Source of the DNA: a virus
Virus record (IMG/VR): IMGVR_UViG_3300044673_000120
Location: 1 to 37,590 of that record
DNA length: 37,590 nt
Direction: 5' to 3' (one strand)
The notes under the pieces: model-generated
Database searches by the model: none
What the model was told of the DNA's origin: nothing
What the model saw: the letters and a program-made list of their open reading frames with translations, nothing else
Shown here: positions 20,447-35,269 of the stretch, piece by piece
How the letters are laid out: every line of letters begins with the position of its first letter
How positions within the stretch are numbered: the first letter of the stretch is position 1
Position numbers and translations under genes: made by a program

Positions 20447-23050
20447 ATGAAACAAGAAGTTAAAAAGCGGCCTATGCAGCCGATTATTTCGCAGCTGGTA
20501 ATCAAACCGCCACAGCGCAAAACGTCTGACGTTGGCCAGTGGCGCACGGCCATGCAGAGTGCCGACATGGGTCGCATGAAATTGCTTTTCGATCTGTACG
20601 AAGATTTACTGATCGACGGCGTTCTGGCCGATGCTGTTGATAAACGGATCAGTGCAGTGACCAACTCGCCAATCACGTTTCAGGATGCCAACGGCAAGGA
20701 TGTTCCGGAGATCACTGATCTGATCGACACCCCGGCTTTCGAAGAGTTACTTACTACAATTATGCAATCCCGTTTCTGGGGAAGGGCTGCCGGTGAATTT
20801 ACCTTTGCTGAGGAGTTCGGGTTTACACCACTGCCATTTAAACACATTAACCTGGATAATAAAAGCATTCTGATTAACGAGTACGATGAAAAAGGCATCG
20901 ACTATTCAGCTGATGATATGATTCTGGTCTTAGGTCGCCCGGCGCAGTTTGGTTTATTCCTGAAGACGGCACCTTATGCTATCTGGAAACGTGGCGGGTT
21001 TGGAGACTATGCCCAATGGCTCGAGCTGTTTGGTATGCCGCAGCGGGTGGGTAAGTACTCGAGTTATGATCCGGAAAGCCGCCAGACCTTGGTTGCGGCC
21101 ATGGAACAAGCCGGATCAGCTCCTTGGATCGTGATCCCGAAAGAAACTGAGGTTGAAACGGTGAACAATACCGGTACCGGAAGTTCATCCGGAGCGCACA
21201 ACGATTTCCGCAAAGCCTGTAACGAGGAGTTACTGATTACCATTTTAGGGCAAACAATGACTACCCTTGACGGATCTAGCAAGAGCCAGAGCGAAACCCA
21301 CAAAGAGGTAGAAGAGGGAAAGAATAAAAGCGATATGCGCTATGTACGCCGCATTCTCAACCGCATGGTTGTGCCATTGCTCGAAAAACGCGGCTACCCG
21401 GTAAAAGGTGGAAAATTTGTATTTCCTGAATCGGCCATAGAGTTAACCGTTGACGATATCGTTTCGCTATCTGAATTGATTGAAATACCGGCCAGTTACC
21501 TTCACGATAAATATTCAATTCCGGTACCCGAAAACGGTGAGGAAATTGCACGGGCTTCGACGGCTTCGTCAGGCTCAGCCACCGAGCCGCCGAAAGGAGG
21601 GGATAAAACCCCACCCGCAACAAAACCAAAAGGGAAAGTTACTGATCCAGCCAAACCTGTAAAGCTTGCAGATGATCCAATAATTGATCATGGCGCAATG
21701 GAAGTGCGCGATCAAAAATATTTTTGGGAAAGGTTCTTTGATTTTTTCGTAGCGGCCCCAGGGAGAGGGGCTATGAATGGAAATCGCCGCACATCGGTTG
21801 AATTATCCGATACTGGCGAATTTAGCGATACAGATTTTTTAAAACGGGTTTACGACAGTAAGCCTTATTTTGATATCCAACTGTTTAATCACATCAGCAG
21901 CAACCTGATCGAAAAATTCCGTGAAGGTTGGAAGAACGACGCGGTTAAGCTTGCCGACATTGGGTTTAGTTATGGCTATACTTCAGAGGTTGCGCAAACA
22001 GCCATGGAGCTAAACCTATTCCATTTCAGCGCGGCAAAAACGTTGGCCGAGTGCCAGGAGTTGAATTCAATATTCCGGGAATCAAAAAGCTTTGATGAGT
22101 TTGTAAAGGCGGCATCGGTTAAACACGATCTGTTTAATAAGACCTGGGCTGAAACGGAATACAATACAGCTTATTTGACTGCCGAAAGCTCAGCTACCTA
22201 TTACCGGCTAAAGGATCAGTCGGACATATTTCCGGCATGGGAGTATAAAACTCAGGATGATAATCATGTCAGGGTTTCACACGCGGCACTAAACGGGTTA
22301 ACTCTTCCGTACAATGATCCGTTGTGGAATAGGATCATGCCGCCAAACGACTGGAATTGCAGATGCTATATAGTTGGCCGAACTAAAAGTGAATCCAAAA
22401 ACATAAGTTATGCCGATGAGCGGCAAAAGGCAAACGAATATATCAGTACTCCGGAGTTTGAAAAAGCTAAAGCGCAGGGATGGGGTGTAAACAGGGCCGA
22501 ACAAAAACAGGTTTTTACAGCCGATCAGATGTATATCAAACGGTTTCCTGGTGCGAGCTCGAAAGGAATAATCACAGATGAGGTAAAACATATTACCAAA
22601 CTCGACTATACCGACTACGGTTTAAGCGGCATTTCAACCGAAATGAAAACAGCGGCAAACCCGGCCAACAAATACGTTGGCGAAGCCGAGGCATGGTTTA
22701 ATAGCCAGAGCAAAAATTCCGGTGACTTGATTCTGAAAGATTATAACAACCGGCACGTCGCTTTAACTGAAGAAAACTTTAAGTATCACACCACAGGTAA
22801 CAAGTCAGATAGGGTGCTTTTACTCGATGCCATGAAAGAGGTATTAGTTAAGCCTAATGAGGTGTGGTTAAATGGGGTAGGATTAAACGACCTGTATTTG
22901 CTGAAGTTCTACAACGACAAAACGGTAGTTGTTTGGTGTAAGGTTGAGAATGGGAATATTTCAACGGTTCATTCGTGGTTTGAGCTGGCCTTGAAAAAGA
23001 AAGTAATCCGGAAGTACCGTGGGGGTTTACTCATAAAAAAAGCCGAATAA
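20447..23050 (+). CDS. Portal - Mu F head morphogenesis - nuclease-like fusion
   Basis: 867 aa in three parts. Residues 1 to about 400 are a DUF935 (Mu gp29-like) portal, with IISQLVIKPPQRKTSDVGQW and MEQAGSAPWIVIPKETEVE. A Pro/Lys-rich linker (about 385-405) leads to a Mu F/SPP1 gp7-like morphogenesis domain (about 450-660) with WEYKTQDDNHVRVSHAAL and the PPNDWNCRCYI end motif. The last 140 residues resemble phage Barnase/EndoU/colicin/RelE-like (PBECR) nuclease domains attached to structural polyproteins, with DRVLLLDAMKEVLVKPNEVW and KYRGGLLIKK. In Mu, gp29 and gp30 are separate. The nuclease-like domain could enter the cell with the DNA or help in assembly; activity is inference. The stop codon lies in the loop of a terminator. 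Confidence 0.85.
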   Translation: MKQEVKKRPMQPIISQLVIKPPQRKTSDVGQWRTAMQSADMGRMKLLFDLYEDLLIDGVLADAVDKRISAVTNSPITFQDANGKDVPEITDLIDTPAFEELLTTIMQSRFWGRAAGEFTFAEEFGFTPLPFKHINLDNKSILINEYDEKGIDYSADDMILVLGRPAQFGLFLKTAPYAIWKRGGFGDYAQWLELFGMPQRVGKYSSYDPESRQTLVAAMEQAGSAPWIVIPKETEVETVNNTGTGSSSGAHNDFRKACNEELLITILGQTMTTLDGSSKSQSETHKEVEEGKNKSDMRYVRRILNRMVVPLLEKRGYPVKGGKFVFPESAIELTVDDIVSLSELIEIPASYLHDKYSIPVPENGEEIARASTASSGSATEPPKGGDKTPPATKPKGKVTDPAKPVKLADDPIIDHGAMEVRDQKYFWERFFDFFVAAPGRGAMNGNRRTSVELSDTGEFSDTDFLKRVYDSKPYFDIQLFNHISSNLIEKFREGWKNDAVKLADIGFSYGYTSEVAQTAMELNLFHFSAAKTLAECQELNSIFRESKSFDEFVKAASVKHDLFNKTWAETEYNTAYLTAESSATYYRLKDQSDIFPAWEYKTQDDNHVRVSHAALNGLTLPYNDPLWNRIMPPNDWNCRCYIVGRTKSESKNISYADERQKANEYISTPEFEKAKAQGWGVNRAEQKQVFTADQMYIKRFPGASSKGIITDEVKHITKLDYTDYGLSGISTEMKTAANPANKYVGEAEAWFNSQSKNSGDLILKDYNNRHVALTEENFKYHTTGNKSDRVLLLDAMKEVLVKPNEVWLNGVGLNDLYLLKFYNDKTVVVWCKVENGNISTVHSWFELALKKKVIRKYRGGLLIKKAE

Positions 23051-26339: not shown

Positions 26340-26645
26340 TTAAGTAAATTTAAATCGGTCGTTTTCTTCAATAATTGTAGTTAAGAAAGGGAAGCAGTCA
26401 GCCGGGACCTGTTTAATCGATTCGATCAGACCGGTTGATCCGGTAAAAAGAACGTGCCTTTTTTCTTCAATTGAAACCTCAAGGTGCAGGCACTTTTCAT
26501 CACCGCTTTTTTTGAAAACCTTTGAGTCTTCGAGCTTGAAGCGGTGAATCGTAATCTCCCGGTTTAGAACCTTCGAAATCTTTATTTTCTCGCCCTCAAA
26601 ACCGCGCTCCAGAGCTTTTATATTTAATTCGCTAAACCGCTTCAT
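26340..26645 (-). CDS. Small protein overlapping the DGR reverse transcriptase
   Basis: 101 aa, starting inside the last codons of the reverse transcriptase gene (14-nt overlap). It is lysine-rich with a beta-rich core and a conserved-looking end with HVLFTGSTGLIESIKQVP, FPFLTTI and a final FKFT. It does not look like the helical Avd accessory protein or an HRDC domain found in other DGRs. Similar proteins are, from memory, seen in Bacteroidota mobile elements without DGRs. Its translational coupling makes it a candidate accessory factor, perhaps nucleic acid binding, but this is inference. Confidence 0.6.
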   Translation of the reverse strand: MKRFSELNIKALERGFEGEKIKISKVLNREITIHRFKLEDSKVFKKSGDEKCLHLEVSIEEKRHVLFTGSTGLIESIKQVPADCFPFLTTIIEENDRFKFT

Positions 26646-27591
26646 GCAGTAATTTTTTCATTAGGTTTTTACTATTGCAATGTTTGGCCCAGCCGTTATA
26701 GCTGGCTATCGACTTTGCATTTCTATTTTTCTTCAGCATTCGTGCAAAATTCTTTTTGATTGTTTTTCGTAGAAGTGTGTGAGTGTGATAAAATACATAT
26801 CCAACAAAATCGACTCCCCGCATTTCGACCGGAAATACCTGATAATTTCCCTTAACTGTCAGCTTCAGGTTATCCTGAAGGTATGTAGTGATTTCAGCGC
26901 GTAATTGGTGTAAATAGGGCTTATTGTCGGAAAATATCACCAAATCGTCAGCATAGCGGAAATAGTAACGCACCTGCTTTTCTTCCTTGATCCAGTGATC
27001 GAAATAAGTGAGATAGAAATTTGCGAAATATTGGCTGAGATAGTTGCCAATCGGAAGCCCCGACGTGCTGTCTATGATCTCATCCAACAGCCACAACAGG
27101 TCATTGTCCTTAATTTTCCGGCGCAATAACCGCTTTAAGGTGGCATGATCGACCGATGGATAGAACTTCTTAACATCCAGCTTCAAACAATAGCTGGTGT
27201 TTTCAATATCATTTAAAGCCCGTTTAACTGCCTTTGCAGCGGCATGAATACCTTTTTTTTTGATACAGCTATATGTGTCAGCTGTAAAAGTTGAGACAAA
27301 CAGCGGTTCCAGCACATTCATTACAGCATGATGCAAGATCCGGTCGGGAAAATAAGGCAACCGGAAGATGATCCGCTCTTTCGGTTCGAGGATTGTGAAG
27401 GTTGTATATTCTGACGTGCGGTAGGTTCTACCCACCAACATTTCGTGCAGCTGCTGAATATTTGCCTCACGGTTCTGGTCGTGAGCAATTACTCCTGGTT
27501 GCTTCGACTTCCCTTTCCGGGCAATTGAGTCTGCCAGTTCAAGGTTCTCAATGCTATAGATGCGCTCATACAGGTTGTTGAATCTTTTCAT
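26632..27591 (-). CDS. DGR reverse transcriptase
   Basis: 319 aa. Catalytic motifs: LKLDVKKFYPSVDH (136-149) with the first Asp, LPIGNYLSQYFANFYL (179-194), and YADD (213-216) with the paired Asp. The IGxxxSQ motif is the DGR signature that replaces QGxxxSP of group II intron enzymes. No maturase or nuclease domain follows, and the length is normal for DGR enzymes. It copies the template RNA with errors at adenines, and the cDNA replaces the variable regions of the target genes. The template repeat lies 109 nt upstream on the same strand. Confidence 0.95.
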   Translation of the reverse strand: MKRFNNLYERIYSIENLELADSIARKGKSKQPGVIAHDQNREANIQQLHEMLVGRTYRTSEYTTFTILEPKERIIFRLPYFPDRILHHAVMNVLEPLFVSTFTADTYSCIKKKGIHAAAKAVKRALNDIENTSYCLKLDVKKFYPSVDHATLKRLLRRKIKDNDLLWLLDEIIDSTSGLPIGNYLSQYFANFYLTYFDHWIKEEKQVRYYFRYADDLVIFSDNKPYLHQLRAEITTYLQDNLKLTVKGNYQVFPVEMRGVDFVGYVFYHTHTLLRKTIKKNFARMLKKNRNAKSIASYNGWAKHCNSKNLMKKLLHEAV

Positions 27592-27700
27592 TTTGCCTTT
27601 GCTTTTTAAAGATCGTTTTCCCTACCAATTGGCGGGTACCAACGCCCTTGAAAGTGATTTGTTTTTTGCCGTGCGGGCAAGGTTTATGCTGCGAAAAAAA

Positions 27701-27780
27701 CATAGGTGCGAACTGACATTCGTATTCTCGTAGTTGTAATTCGAATTCGAGTTCGAAAAACTGGAACCTGAAGACAAAAC
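27701..27780 (-). repeat. DGR template repeat (TR)
   Basis: Aligned by hand to the two variable regions over 78 positions (27701-27778): 15 differences to VR1 and 18 to VR2, each at one of the 21 T positions on the + strand, i.e. A in the coding sense; the other 57 positions are identical in all three. Read in the VR frame it has AAC, AAT and TAC codons at most variable sites. The 109 nt between TR and the reverse transcriptase can form small hairpins (TTGCC/GGCAA near 27666-27680; GGCG/CGCC near 27631-27647) and corresponds to the spacer part of the template RNA in the BPP-1 system. Confidence 0.95.
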
Positions 27781-27812
27781 TGACAGCACATGCAGCATAC
27801 AACCGTATTTAT

Positions 27813-28229
27813 TTATTCTGAATACAAAAAGTAATCGACGTACTCTGCCTCAAATTGCTCGGCGATGTATCTGGCCTTTTCCGATGAATCGGTGCAAAGG
27901 CGCGAACCGACAGTCGTAATCTCGCAGTGGTAACCCGAACCCGAGCGCGAAAAACCGGAACCCGAAGACAAAACCCCAAACCAGGGGAACCATTTCTTTT
28001 GATCATCATTGCTCCAATCGGGCACCCAGCCATTATTGATTGCTTTATAGATGACCATTAATTTATAGGCTGAAATGAGCGGTTTATGCAAATCGGCGTC
28101 CATTAATAATGATACGTCCGGAAGTGTGGTTGTAATACGAATTGCCTTACAGGCGTCTTCGAAAGTTTTGATTGTTCTGAAATCAAACTTTACAGCTTCA
28201 TCCTTTTCATTTTTGTTTTTTGTTGTCAT
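27813..28229 (-). CDS. DGR-diversified target protein 1
   Basis: 138 aa, no signal peptide or membrane segment. The N-terminal part is helical (IKTFEDACKAIRI about 20-32; AYKLMVIYKAINNGWVPDW about 54-72), then a Trp-rich strand (KKWFPWF), the variable region (about 86-112, SSGSGF...VGSRLC) and a final helix (ARYIAEQFEAEYVDYF). It is a homologue of the neighbouring target gene and starts 4 nt after it. The Gly/Ser-framed variable loop before GSRLC looks like a compact ligand-binding fold, as in C-type-lectin DGR targets, but the fold is not proven. It ends 33 nt before the template repeat. Confidence 0.88.
   Translation of the reverse strand: MTTKNKNEKDEAVKFDFRTIKTFEDACKAIRITTTLPDVSLLMDADLHKPLISAYKLMVIYKAINNGWVPDWSNDDQKKWFPWFGVLSSGSGFSRSGSGYHCEITTVGSRLCTDSSEKARYIAEQFEAEYVDYFLYSE
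27895..27974 (-). repeat. DGR variable region 1 (VR1)
   Basis: Matches the template repeat without gaps; all 15 differences lie at template adenines (coding sense). The last coding stretch, GTC GGT TCG CGC CTT TG, is the same in both VRs and differs from the template at three adenines, the pattern expected for the IMH (VR) against IMH* (TR) homing signal. Confidence 0.93.
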
Positions 28230-28233
28230 TTTT

Positions 28234-28698
28234 TTACTCTTGAATGGTTAAAAATTGTTTGTATAAATCACTGAATTGCTTTGCAGCATAGTTGCTCTTT
28301 GCCTCAGACTCGAAGCAAAGGCGCGAACCGACAAACGTACCCACGTAGCGGTAACCCGAAAGCGAGAACGAAAAACCGGAACCCGAAGACAAATTAAACC
28401 ACGGCCAGTACTTTGGCTGGCTGCTATTGGTCCAATCTGGAACCCAGCCCTGGTTAATTGCTTTGATTACAATCTTTAGCTTTTTATAAGCGACTTCATC
28501 CGGGGTGTCATTTTGATTGTACACAGTTGCCGGATGAACGCCCAATTCATCACAAGCATCTTCGAAAGTTTTAATATCCTCAAAGCTTCGTTTCTTGAAT
28601 AAGTCTTTACCGAAGTTTTCCTCCAGTAGCTCTCTAAACCAATCCGGTGAATCCGGATAGATCTTTTTTGCTGTTGATTTTTGAAGTGTTAAACTCAT
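28234..28698 (-). CDS. DGR-diversified target protein 2
   Basis: 154 aa, homologous to target 1 with about 20 more residues at the N-terminus (MSLTLQKSTAKKIYPDSPDW). Shared landmarks are DIKTFEDACDELGV (about 41-54), IVIKAINQGWVPDW (76-89), YWPWF (97-101), the variable region (about 103-128) and a final helix NYAAKQFSDLYKQFL. No signal peptide. The pair probably arose by duplication, and the second VR shows more divergence from the template than the first. Role unknown; it is not a tail fibre by sequence or place. Confidence 0.88.
   Translation of the reverse strand: MSLTLQKSTAKKIYPDSPDWFRELLEENFGKDLFKKRSFEDIKTFEDACDELGVHPATVYNQNDTPDEVAYKKLKIVIKAINQGWVPDWTNSSQPKYWPWFNLSSGSGFSFSLSGYRYVGTFVGSRLCFESEAKSNYAAKQFSDLYKQFLTIQE
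28316..28393 (-). repeat. DGR variable region 2 (VR2)
   Basis: Aligns without gaps to the template over 78 positions with 18 differences, all at template adenines (coding sense). At eight of these positions VR1 carries the same change; several of those lie near the two borders, the rest of the changes differ between the VRs. Confidence 0.93.
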
Positions 28699-31953: not shown

Positions 31954-32183
31954 GCTGCCTCCTTTAATTGTTCAATTTTTTCAATTGCGTAATTCAATGT
32001 CATTGGTTCATCTGATTGGGTTAAGAATCTTGGTTTTTCCCCTATCATTATTGAACTGTCGACAACCCAACATCCAACCCATACAGACGACTGAAATGGA
32101 CCGCAATCAACCACGTTGTTTTCTTCATCAATAGTCCACCAAAGGAAATCCTGTCCACGATCTTCAAAATGTATCTTTTTCAT
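31950..32183 (-). CDS. Small hypothetical early protein
   Basis: 77 aa, rich in Trp and Asp, beta-like: FEDRGQDFLWWTIDEENNVV and VWVGCWVVDSSIMIG. It overlaps both neighbours by 4 nt, so it is translated with MuB. It could be a small single-domain fold. Function unknown. Confidence 0.7.
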   Translation of the reverse strand: MKKIHFEDRGQDFLWWTIDEENNVVDCGPFQSSVWVGCWVVDSSIMIGEKPRFLTQSDEPMTLNYAIEKIEQLKEAA

Positions 32184-33130
32184 GCTTCAACCTCCTTGCT
32201 TAAAATCAATAGACTTTCAGCGCGGCGAAGTCCGCCAATCTGATCCTCGATCCCTGGCCTTGATTTTCTATTAAAATCTTTATTGCTTGCTACATTAACC
32301 ATGCACTTAAGCACTATTTGATTAATCTTGTCTGGCTCACATCCATTTGCTTCCAGAACATCAGCAATAAGTTTTTTGTAAAATCTGATTTTATCTTCTC
32401 GACCAATTGGAACGACCTTCGAGAATTTGTCGGAGTACCGCGAGAAGATCTCTGCAAAACCAACCTTTTTATTGGCAATTCCACGCTCTATTTTGGCGCG
32501 TAAACCATCGGCTCCCATCATATACCATCCGCAATAATTCTCGGTGGCGTTCCAGAGCTCCTTAAGTTCCAAAAAGGCTTCGTATTCGAGGTCACCGGCT
32601 TCGTCGATAATTACAACCGGGTGATTAATGCTCTTCAGGTAAAATTTGAGGGTTTCTTTTACTGTGAAGTATTGGCCTTTGCTTTCGCCACCAACTGTTT
32701 TTGCTAAAAGCCTGATAAATGCCTGGCGTGTTTTGGCCTGAGAAGCATCCACATAAAAGCAGTTTTTCATTGTCCGGCTTAGGTATTTAGCCGTGAAGGT
32801 TTTGCCGATACCGCAGTCATCGACACATATTTTTGCTTTTGCATAAGCCTTACAAAACTGGACATCCTCCTCAATCATGTTGAACACGTCGGTACGGGCG
32901 ACATTCCATTTGCGGTCTTCAATGGTAATCCCTAAGAATTGAGCCATCATGATCCACTGGGTCGTTTTCAGTAGTCCCATGTGTTCGCCTTTGTGGAGGC
33001 GCGAGTAAACAGCCGCCGAAATTCCGAGCGATTTGGCAAACGCGCCATCGGTACCATCGTACAATTCGCGGCGTTCGATCATTGCGTCGATGATCTTTAA
33101 TTTGAAATCCTGTGTAAGTGTAATAGCCAT
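32180..33130 (-). CDS. MuB-like AAA+ ATPase, transposition target factor
   Basis: 316 aa. An N-terminal helix-turn-helix (about 28-48, AFAKSLGISAAVYSRLHKG) precedes a P-loop core: Walker A DDCGIGKT (104-111), Walker B VVIIDEAGD (about 172-180) and a sensor region near MMGADGLRAK. This is the MuB/IstB-related plan. MuB coats target DNA, delivers it to the transposase and gives target immunity. It follows the transposase by 17 nt. Confidence 0.88.
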   Translation of the reverse strand: MAITLTQDFKLKIIDAMIERRELYDGTDGAFAKSLGISAAVYSRLHKGEHMGLLKTTQWIMMAQFLGITIEDRKWNVARTDVFNMIEEDVQFCKAYAKAKICVDDCGIGKTFTAKYLSRTMKNCFYVDASQAKTRQAFIRLLAKTVGGESKGQYFTVKETLKFYLKSINHPVVIIDEAGDLEYEAFLELKELWNATENYCGWYMMGADGLRAKIERGIANKKVGFAEIFSRYSDKFSKVVPIGREDKIRFYKKLIADVLEANGCEPDKINQIVLKCMVNVASNKDFNRKSRPGIEDQIGGLRRAESLLILSKEVEA

Positions 33131-33147
33131 TTGGTTTGTTTTTGGTG

Positions 33148-35196
33148 TTAAAATCGGTCGTATAAACCTTTATTAAAAGGCGTTGAAATGAAATTTAAAT
33201 CGTCATCATTCAAATCCGGATTGTCGAGCACTTCAACCGGAACGATTCGCTCGGTAACGGTGCGGCGCAATCCGGATATTTTGAATTTGTTGTTTAGCGT
33301 TGTTGGAATGTTGTCGATCACTGTGACCGGATCAATCGATTTGCTTTTAGAGTTGATAAACCCGTTTACTGAAGCCACATATTTGCTCATTTGCTCGCGA
33401 GCTTCCAGATCGGTTTCAGTTTGTTCAAGTTTGGCTCGGTGATAAACCGGTTTCGAAATAGCTTCGCACACGCAGCGGTCGGTTCCGCGTAAGTAGACCA
33501 ATGCTTTTAATACCTTGCCGTCATTTCCGTCGAGCCAATATATGTCCAGATCTTTCCCTTCAACCTGAGCCATGAGGCTAATCAGCCGGTCGCTAAATGC
33601 GATCTCACCGTTTTCGCCAATCAGACATTCAGTATTGTTCAGCTTAATAATCCCGGTATTGCATGAGGTTTGTGTTTTGAATCCCAACGATGGAAGGAAA
33701 GCCCGCCAATTGGTTGGAGTCATGTTTGGGTGTTGCATCTCGGTCAATACCTCCCAGCAGGTTTTATCTTTAATTACCGGGTGCGGAGCATTGTTCCAGT
33801 TTTCAATATCAATCAGGCAATCGTCTATAATATTATCGTAAGGTATGATCTGATGTTTTTCAGGTCCTGCCTGGTTTGATTCTGACAATGCTTTCGGACG
33901 TGCGATCCATCCTTCACGTTTCTTTTCAGTACCATACCTGAGGGGTTTCCAGTAAGGTTCAATTCGCTTTGCGCGGGCAACGTTGGCGGCAATGTGTGTT
34001 TTCTGAAACATATTACCATCAGCCAAAAACGAATTCAGGAATTGGCTGTTTCCGCTCATTTCTCCTTCAAGCTCGTAAGGAAGGCTTAAACCCCACTCGG
34101 TATAGTTGCGAACCATCTGGCGGTAAAATTCAAGGATCAGGCTATCTTTTGTTTTACCGAAAACCCATGTTGTAATAGCTCCGCTTCCGAGATCAATACC
34201 GCCGTACATCCAAACACGTTTTCCTTTTTCGTACCAGAAAGGAGGCTGCCTGTCATCCACTGATATAATCGAACCGGCAAATTCAGGGCGTTTCATGCTA
34301 TGGTAAGGCTTGAATTTAGACATCCAGAGTTGACTGTCGCCGCTGCGTAGCGTATGGGTACCCGCTTTATTGGTCCATTTAGCCAGGTAATTAGTGATTG
34401 TTGCCTGAGAAAGCTTTGGAAATTCCTTAGAGTCGTATATTTCGCCGGTTTTGTTATTGATTACGTCAACATATCCGCTTAAAAAACCTTCATATTGTCT
34501 TGAAATTTCTGTTGCAGTTGGCTTATATGATTGGTGGGCAAACATGCTGTTGAGTAAATCCATCACCGTTTCATCAACTTTTAGAGCCGATTTATTACAG
34601 AAATTGCCATGAATCAGTGCGGAGTACCCTTCTTTTTTGTAGTCTTTCAACTTTCTCCGGAGACTGGCGGCATTGGCTGGCAGTGTATGCGATTGAATAT
34701 CCCGAAACCGGTTGCATTCGTTGGTAACAATGGTCCAAATATCGGCTACACCACCGCGAAGACTTTTGCGGAGCTCGTAGCGTTTTGTATAGATCCGCTC
34801 AACGGTGTTCAGAACTGAAGCGTTCAAAGTGTATTCGTCAATCACATCGTCGGGCAGCAATTTCCCATCAGTAAGCTGATAGTTGGCGTAAAATTCAATC
34901 GCTCGGGAGTCGCGGGAGTAATGACGTTCAAAAAGTGATTGCCTCACCTGGCGTTGTGGCTCGCCAAAAGTTTCGATGAGTAGTTTTTGCCAGTCGCGTG
35001 GTAAGGTGTCCCATTTTACCAAGGTAGGAGTATTTGGACCCTGAGCGCGGAGGCGTTTAATGTAATTATTTTCAATCCTATGTCGCAAACCGCGATCACT
35101 TATAAGTTTCAGGCTTGAGTCGAAGGCGTCTCTGCCTTCAACGAGTACACGCGCCTGCACTCCTAATTGCTCGTTGTGATATTCGTAAGGGATCAT
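33148..35196 (-). CDS. MuA-like DDE transposase
   Basis: 682 aa from the ATG at 35194-35196 (MIPYEYHNEQLGVQARVLVE); an ATG 21 codons upstream lacks sequence character. The core has SIISVDDRQPPFWYEKGK with the first Asp, a second acidic site in the YELEGEMSGNSQF block (Glu, where MuA has Asp) and NVARAKRIEPYWKPLR with the catalytic Glu about 34-36 residues later. REGWIARPKALSESNQAGP is the conserved block after the catalytic Glu. The C-terminal beta domain and a charged end follow, as in MuA. It cuts both phage ends and joins them to target DNA in integration and replicative transposition. Confidence 0.92.
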   Translation of the reverse strand: MIPYEYHNEQLGVQARVLVEGRDAFDSSLKLISDRGLRHRIENNYIKRLRAQGPNTPTLVKWDTLPRDWQKLLIETFGEPQRQVRQSLFERHYSRDSRAIEFYANYQLTDGKLLPDDVIDEYTLNASVLNTVERIYTKRYELRKSLRGGVADIWTIVTNECNRFRDIQSHTLPANAASLRRKLKDYKKEGYSALIHGNFCNKSALKVDETVMDLLNSMFAHQSYKPTATEISRQYEGFLSGYVDVINNKTGEIYDSKEFPKLSQATITNYLAKWTNKAGTHTLRSGDSQLWMSKFKPYHSMKRPEFAGSIISVDDRQPPFWYEKGKRVWMYGGIDLGSGAITTWVFGKTKDSLILEFYRQMVRNYTEWGLSLPYELEGEMSGNSQFLNSFLADGNMFQKTHIAANVARAKRIEPYWKPLRYGTEKKREGWIARPKALSESNQAGPEKHQIIPYDNIIDDCLIDIENWNNAPHPVIKDKTCWEVLTEMQHPNMTPTNWRAFLPSLGFKTQTSCNTGIIKLNNTECLIGENGEIAFSDRLISLMAQVEGKDLDIYWLDGNDGKVLKALVYLRGTDRCVCEAISKPVYHRAKLEQTETDLEAREQMSKYVASVNGFINSKSKSIDPVTVIDNIPTTLNNKFKISGLRRTVTERIVPVEVLDNPDLNDDDLNFISTPFNKGLYDRF

Positions 35197-35269
35197 TGGT
35201 TGAGTTTTTTTTTGAGAAACCGGGGCCGACAGCAAACAGGCGGATGACCCCGGAATCATTTACATGAAT

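Follow-up and report, generated by a model that had tools for sequence, protein, structure and literature searches.

The window analysed here, a 37,590-base IMG/VR virus record taken over its whole length, carries a compact DGR cassette on its minus strand. In the direction of transcription, it begins with target gene 2 (28234-28698; 154 aa, pI 5.9; phrog_11581, E 8.6e-29), followed by its paralogue, target gene 1 (27813-28229; 138 aa; phrog_11581, E 7.3e-24), an intergenic template repeat (TR; 27701-27778), the gene of the DGR reverse transcriptase (RT; 26632-27591; 319 aa with a YADD motif; PF00078; phrog_1423, E 1.9e-128) and orf101 (26340-26645; phrog_19665), which overlaps the RT end and encodes a basic protein (pI 8.6), a candidate DGR accessory protein. 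The RT matches RVT_1 with an E of 4e-17, and its best solved relative, well above group II and retron RTs, is 8ub7 (328 aa, E 1.2e-41), which we take to be the RT of the BPP-1 DGR. Judged by its sequence, the RT is a member of the DGR lineage. The presence of a DGR, already recognized in the first-pass annotation, is borne out by the RT profile, the best solved relative and the TR/VR anatomy. None of the three small ORFs near the RT matched Avd or another named accessory family in Pfam.

The TR is 78 nt long and contains 21 adenines. It aligns without gaps with one variable repeat (VR) in each target gene, namely VR1 at 27895-27972 in target gene 1 (the match runs to 27974) and VR2 at 28316-28393 in target gene 2, both on the minus strand. 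All differences fall on TR adenines, 15 of the 21 being changed in VR1 and 18 in VR2, and all 57 other positions are unchanged in both repeats. This recount is identical to the one given in the first-pass annotation, and the probability that adenine-only changes arise by chance is 1e-11 for VR1 and 6e-15 for VR2. Comparison with the whole window revealed neither a third VR nor a tail target; the next-best site matches 30 of the 57 non-A positions, which rules out chance repeats. The earlier description of two tandem, small and homologous targets served by one TR is therefore upheld, and this arrangement is conserved across many phages.

Eight changes are identical in VR1 and VR2, and the shared changes at TR positions 10, 17, 65, 72 and 76 recur in nearly all relatives. 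The five lie in two codons that are conserved as glycine or serine and at the repeat's 3' end, and they look like fixed differences between template and target rather than diversified sites. Therefore, only about 16 adenines would be truly diversified. The 3' end of the repeat is IMH/IMH*-like (GTCAGTTCGCACCTATG vs GTCGGTTCGCGCCTTTG); its three fixed A differences, present in both VRs and in most relatives, probably correspond to an IMH/IMH* pair. Following the BPP-1 model, the probable IMH* end of the TR would occupy 27701-27717, and the cognate IMH would lie at 27895-27911 in VR1 and at 28316-28332 in VR2, all on the minus strand. BPP-1 and many phage DGRs have a GC-rich hairpin of 7-10 bp with a 4-nt GRNA loop downstream of the VR (PMC3240598). 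A wobble-paired hairpin was located 3' of VR2 in the window, and no enrichment of the canonical post-VR hairpin was found in 173 relatives, in which 32 nt were scanned for Watson-Crick pairs. The TR is rich in AAY, and an A-to-N change at any TR codon never yields a stop in the target frame.

Both target proteins are acidic (pI 5.4-5.9), and sequence analysis detected in them neither a membrane segment nor a signal peptide, the latter as noted previously. Pfam, PHROGs and NCBIfam assign no function to them. Structure prediction had been proposed for both targets; the model reached a pLDDT of 85 overall and about 57 in the VR, and it matched no solved structure in the PDB. The structure search with this model returned uncharacterised viral proteins only. 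The VR of the target is followed by a helix. Homology links the VR module to the C-terminal part of tail-protein DGR targets; only 26 VR columns align with such a target, which is presumed to be of the C-lectin type. With a VR modelled at such low confidence and no PDB match, a C-type lectin fold of the target VR is unproven.

Genome setting and spread of the cassette

The window carries Mu-like markers (phrog_310, E 7e-39; phrog_296, E 1.6e-30; Portal_Mu, E 6e-66), and the matches to MuA, MuB and Portal_Mu agree with the earlier assignment to Mu-like phages. The genes of the MuB-like ATPase and the MuA-like transposase (32180-35259, minus strand; phrog_310 and phrog_296) stand at the start of the early operon of the cassette; MuA, MuB, an ATPase, a GemA-like protein and a DUF3164 protein are followed by the cassette on the same strand. 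Terminase and portal are encoded on the opposite strand, and the tail genes are distant. The same setting is found in related phages: MuA/MuB-type genes lie upstream on the same strand in 23 of 23 Mu-like loci with early genes, and head genes are on the strand opposite to the cassette in 19 of the 20 loci having them. Judged by synteny, the early-region placement proposed before holds in the window and is conserved in its Mu-like relatives. In phages of the integrase type, the cassette is found between the integrase/repressor region on one side and DNA primase on the other. Two other features of the window are worth recording. The portal is fused to a Mu-F-like head protein that has a C-terminal PBECR2 (Barnase/EndoU/ColicinE5/RelE-like) nuclease domain (20447-23050), and at the tail-side genome end (218-1857) a formyltransferase-like gene stands beside a gene that combines ABC-ATPase and GNAT domains; the two might form a Mom-like DNA modification pair.

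Scans of viral and genome collections identified about 120 loci with target homologues. Their named hosts are Bacteroidota, with the single exception of a MAG labelled Clostridia. The order target, target, TR, RT, orf101 recurs in about 80 other Bacteroidota phage or prophage loci, and this identical layout in so many other contigs rules out an assembly artefact. The homologue search suggested by the first-pass annotation recovered both the cassette and its adenine-biased variation, and the generality of the cassette, which had been under-called, is greater than supposed. When the RTs were grouped at 95% identity, two adjacent targets were found in 63 of the 71 clusters, three in 4, one in 3 and none in 1. 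In 89 related loci, A sites differ in 2742 of 3949 cases and other sites in 57 of 10666, which is a strong indication but not a rate: redundant loci are included, overlapping ORFs enter twice in some cases, and the alignment method is biased against non-A mismatches.

Comparison of closely related contigs points in the same direction. Over about 2.9 kb, only nine changes separate loci L005 and L006, and all nine fall in VR2. The three-target loci L084, L090 and L091 show 9-20 differences in the VRs and 0-1 outside them over the 4-6 kb compared, and in the LoVEphage group, where the surroundings of the early VR diverge by 0.8-2.1%, the VR itself differs at 12-20 of 113 nt. Near-identical contigs thus vary almost solely inside the VRs, and therefore the system is active in nature; at the level of sequence, these comparisons demonstrate recent VR-only change in relatives of the window. 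The first-pass annotation had considered that relatives might show no variation biased to adenine sites; near-identical relatives vary specifically in the VRs.

Remote members and the virion question

Most well-studied phage DGRs target virion adhesins, and this established role (PMC8144416) makes it reasonable to ask whether the small targets are virion parts, i.e. tail-tip or fibre decorations with a minimal lectin-like VR which would switch receptors as in BPP-1. The homology of the VR module to the C-terminus of tail proteins favours such an interpretation, as does the annotation of one homologue, that of phage Versailles, as a tail protein. However, the cassettes of Mu-like loci never adjoin tail genes and lie on the early strand in every case. 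Moreover, gut phages already own a DGR-diversified target on the tail side, and their small family member lies in a replication or recombination module. Because of this early-strand placement and of the remote early-module members that coexist with tail-side targets, a virion adhesin is an unlikely identity for the small proteins.

The remote members are found in gut Bacteroidales prophages as single, longer proteins of about 190 aa with no RT nearby. The possibility that these homologues are not DGR proteins is mostly rejected, since five of them are remote targets by TR/VR match. In L040, L044, L050 and L053 the VR matches a TR of the same genome over 114-121 nt with zero non-A changes, and in L047 over 76 nt with one non-A change; no good TR match was found for L039, L041 and L035. 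On their contigs, the remote gut targets and the RT are 34-64 kb apart. In two prophages, one TR serves both a tail-side VR by the RT (non-A identity 86/86 and 85/85) and, at a distance of about 35-38 kb, a small early protein. In genome G013, the RT neighbour is a tail protein of phrog_5302 that matches the small target family with its C-terminus, and the small member of this family has a RecE-like exonuclease on one side and a conserved early gene on the other. Other remote members neighbour ParB/helicase genes, and in LoVEphage-group records the small protein lies near methyltransferases and a tRNA ligase. LoVEphage protein CAJ1878432.1 belongs to the same family as the targets of the window; its VR differs from the RT-side TR over 113 nt at 19 of 26 adenines and at no other position.

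The Versailles member (WAK79127.1; L169 5989-6570) is located in the early region, between NinB and replisome genes (DnaC), and its 'tail protein' label is probably due to VR similarity with tail-protein targets. The relatives of the targets in Crassvirales and Dulem virus have no VR motif, so the target family also has non-diversified members. Among these distant relatives, that of crAss phage cr109_1 (L134 7980-8387) lies among small ORFs and that of Dulem virus 41 (L135 5761-6453) near DNA polymerase/primase genes. In phage BT-TP2 (L132), the gene of the family member is split by the ends of the linear record (44967-45155 and 1-306), which suggests a circularly permuted genome, and a separate RT gene follows a large ORF.

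The conserved pair and its putative function

For a tree of the targets, the VR columns were removed, as was the N-terminal extension carried by the first gene. In this tree, 125 of 126 sequences fall on the side expected from their position as first or second target gene, with low support (0.40) of the separating branch. The nearly perfect split shows two lineages, an ancient pair with one member of each kind per phage. The two target domains are fused into proteins of 273-286 aa in L037 (5500-6360), L042 (5995-6816) and L048 (5539-6360), and both targets are kept without an RT in L062, L074, L105, L110, L120 and L020. In L062 (7036-7256) both targets, the TR and orf101 remain and the RT is gone, so that the DGR is frozen by RT loss. 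The conserved pairing, the fusions and the retention of targets in RT-less loci point to a joint or complementary function, and the two targets may form a physical complex. The conserved pairing also offers a concrete hypothesis for the mode of action: the paralogous, independently hypermutated and cytoplasmic proteins could, as a tentative model, constitute a heteromer or a complementary early recognition unit directed against host defence or rivals, diversified by a DGR whose accessory protein would be OB-like and not of the Avd type.

The following sequence of events is proposed. Reverse transcription of the TR RNA would introduce errors at adenines, and the resulting cDNA would overwrite the VRs in both adjacent, anciently duplicated target genes. 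Both targets would be made from the early operon as small soluble proteins that most likely do not leave the infected cell; there, each would use its hypervariable VR loop to bind partner proteins in phage-host or phage-phage conflict, the most plausible form of which is the countering of host defence. Early expression, cytoplasmic location and protein binding are what we infer for these proteins, and their intracellular function is deduced from position. The role in counter-defence is suggested by the neighbourhood and by analogy. Taken as a whole, the reading of the targets as early, intracellular, hypervariable binders in conflict is the one we consider probable.

A related explanation has the targets act against competing phages or plasmids within the lysogen or the infected cell, as superinfection exclusion or inter-phage conflict, instead of against host defence. 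The early, moron-like placement is compatible with it, and diversification would suit temperate phages that meet varied competitors. However, the cassette of Mu-like phages belongs to the lytic early operon and does not lie beside the repressor. The present data cannot separate exclusion of rivals from host counter-defence, and we regard the former as improbable, marginally more so than a place in the virion. The targets might also bind nucleic acids or phage regulators, for example as diversifying anti-repressors, if their N-terminal part were a degenerate helix-turn-helix. A weak HTH_17 match in target 2 (residues 44-61, E 0.06) and the location among DNA-metabolism genes are in line with this idea, but the match falls well short of the Pfam cut-off, the acidic character of the proteins does not favour it and no fold match was obtained; it is very improbable. 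Through this target family, the role of DGRs within the cell becomes a testable question, for which induced LoVEphage-type prophages can be used.

Relation to known DGRs and the orf101 protein

Phage DGRs are nearly always interpreted as a means of changing host range, and the first-pass annotation likewise presented them as diversifying tail fibres. This is true of BPP-1 and Hankyphage, but a non-structural second target has already been published. Benler et al. (2021) described such a target in a defence-related island of Quimbyvirus (PMC8008677), and a Nature study from 2025 reported a distal VR close to counter-defence genes in four prophage species (PMC12629997). LoVEphage CAJ1878432.1, matched by its neighbourhood, is likely the published Quimbyvirus-type target gene. 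LoVEphage shares with the window the target family, and its non-structural neighbourhood of methyltransferases and a tRNA ligase is as described for Quimbyvirus. However, Quimbyvirus and LoVEphage have one remote target beside a tail target, whereas in the window two adjacent paralogues are the sole targets, with the RT and TR adjoining, and this type occurs in Mu-like and other environmental Bacteroidota phages.

The BPP-1 DGR (mtd, avd, brt) resembles that of the window in RT family, adenine-specific TR-to-VR change and the IMH-like 3' end. Its target, in contrast, is the tail adhesin Mtd with a C-terminal VR, and its accessory protein is Avd; in the window, it is orf101 that has the accessory position, and the target has a helix after its VR. 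Hankyphage (p00, PMC6199706) is likewise a Mu-like Bacteroidota phage with a DGR, but its single VR-bearing target is a large C-type-lectin ORF that ends with the VR (residues 2188-2225). Two-target DGRs account for about 13% of cassettes (PMC10743442). The tentaclin DGRs (PMC10743442) and the Bacuni phages (PMC8143477) also combine one TR with two VRs, but their targets are large, adhesin-like C-lectin proteins in a different topology, or fimbrial-tip-like proteins. No description of the target family, of its use as sole targets, of the paralogous pair or of orf101 as a general DGR companion was found in the searchable literature; the family could correspond to one of the unnamed target clusters of PMC8144416. 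What appears to be new here is the use of small early proteins, kept as a pair, as sole DGR targets, in a DGR that itself seems of a known kind. In many phages the small targets are the only ones seen near the RT, and in the window they are the only ones in the record. The cassette thus represents a large Bacteroidota-phage family of small early-region targets, in which isolated reports of non-structural second targets become one defined family, and it suggests that targeted hypermutation serves phages within infected cells and not in host recognition alone.

The orf101 protein, which gave no match in Pfam, regularly accompanies the RT. It is encoded just behind the RT in 83 of 89 related RT loci, and more distant RTs carry it as a C-terminal fusion. 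Two archaeal viruses, ANMV-1 and vir525, have a homologue immediately after the RT; the ANMV-1 DGR (PMC4372165) differs from that of the window in its single 446-aa target, AdtA, beside tail-fibre genes. A sequence match to the orf101 family is also present at the Hankyphage RT, and in LoVEphage a match lies about 0.4 kb past the annotated RT. This linkage and the fusion make orf101 a candidate DGR accessory protein in the place usually taken by Avd, and so widespread a candidate could account for the lack of Avd in many DGRs. The predicted structure of orf101 (pLDDT 86) is beta-rich, and its weak matches to OB-type proteins (SSB and the RuvBL OB-domain, with Z of 5-6 only) lead to a predicted OB-like fold.
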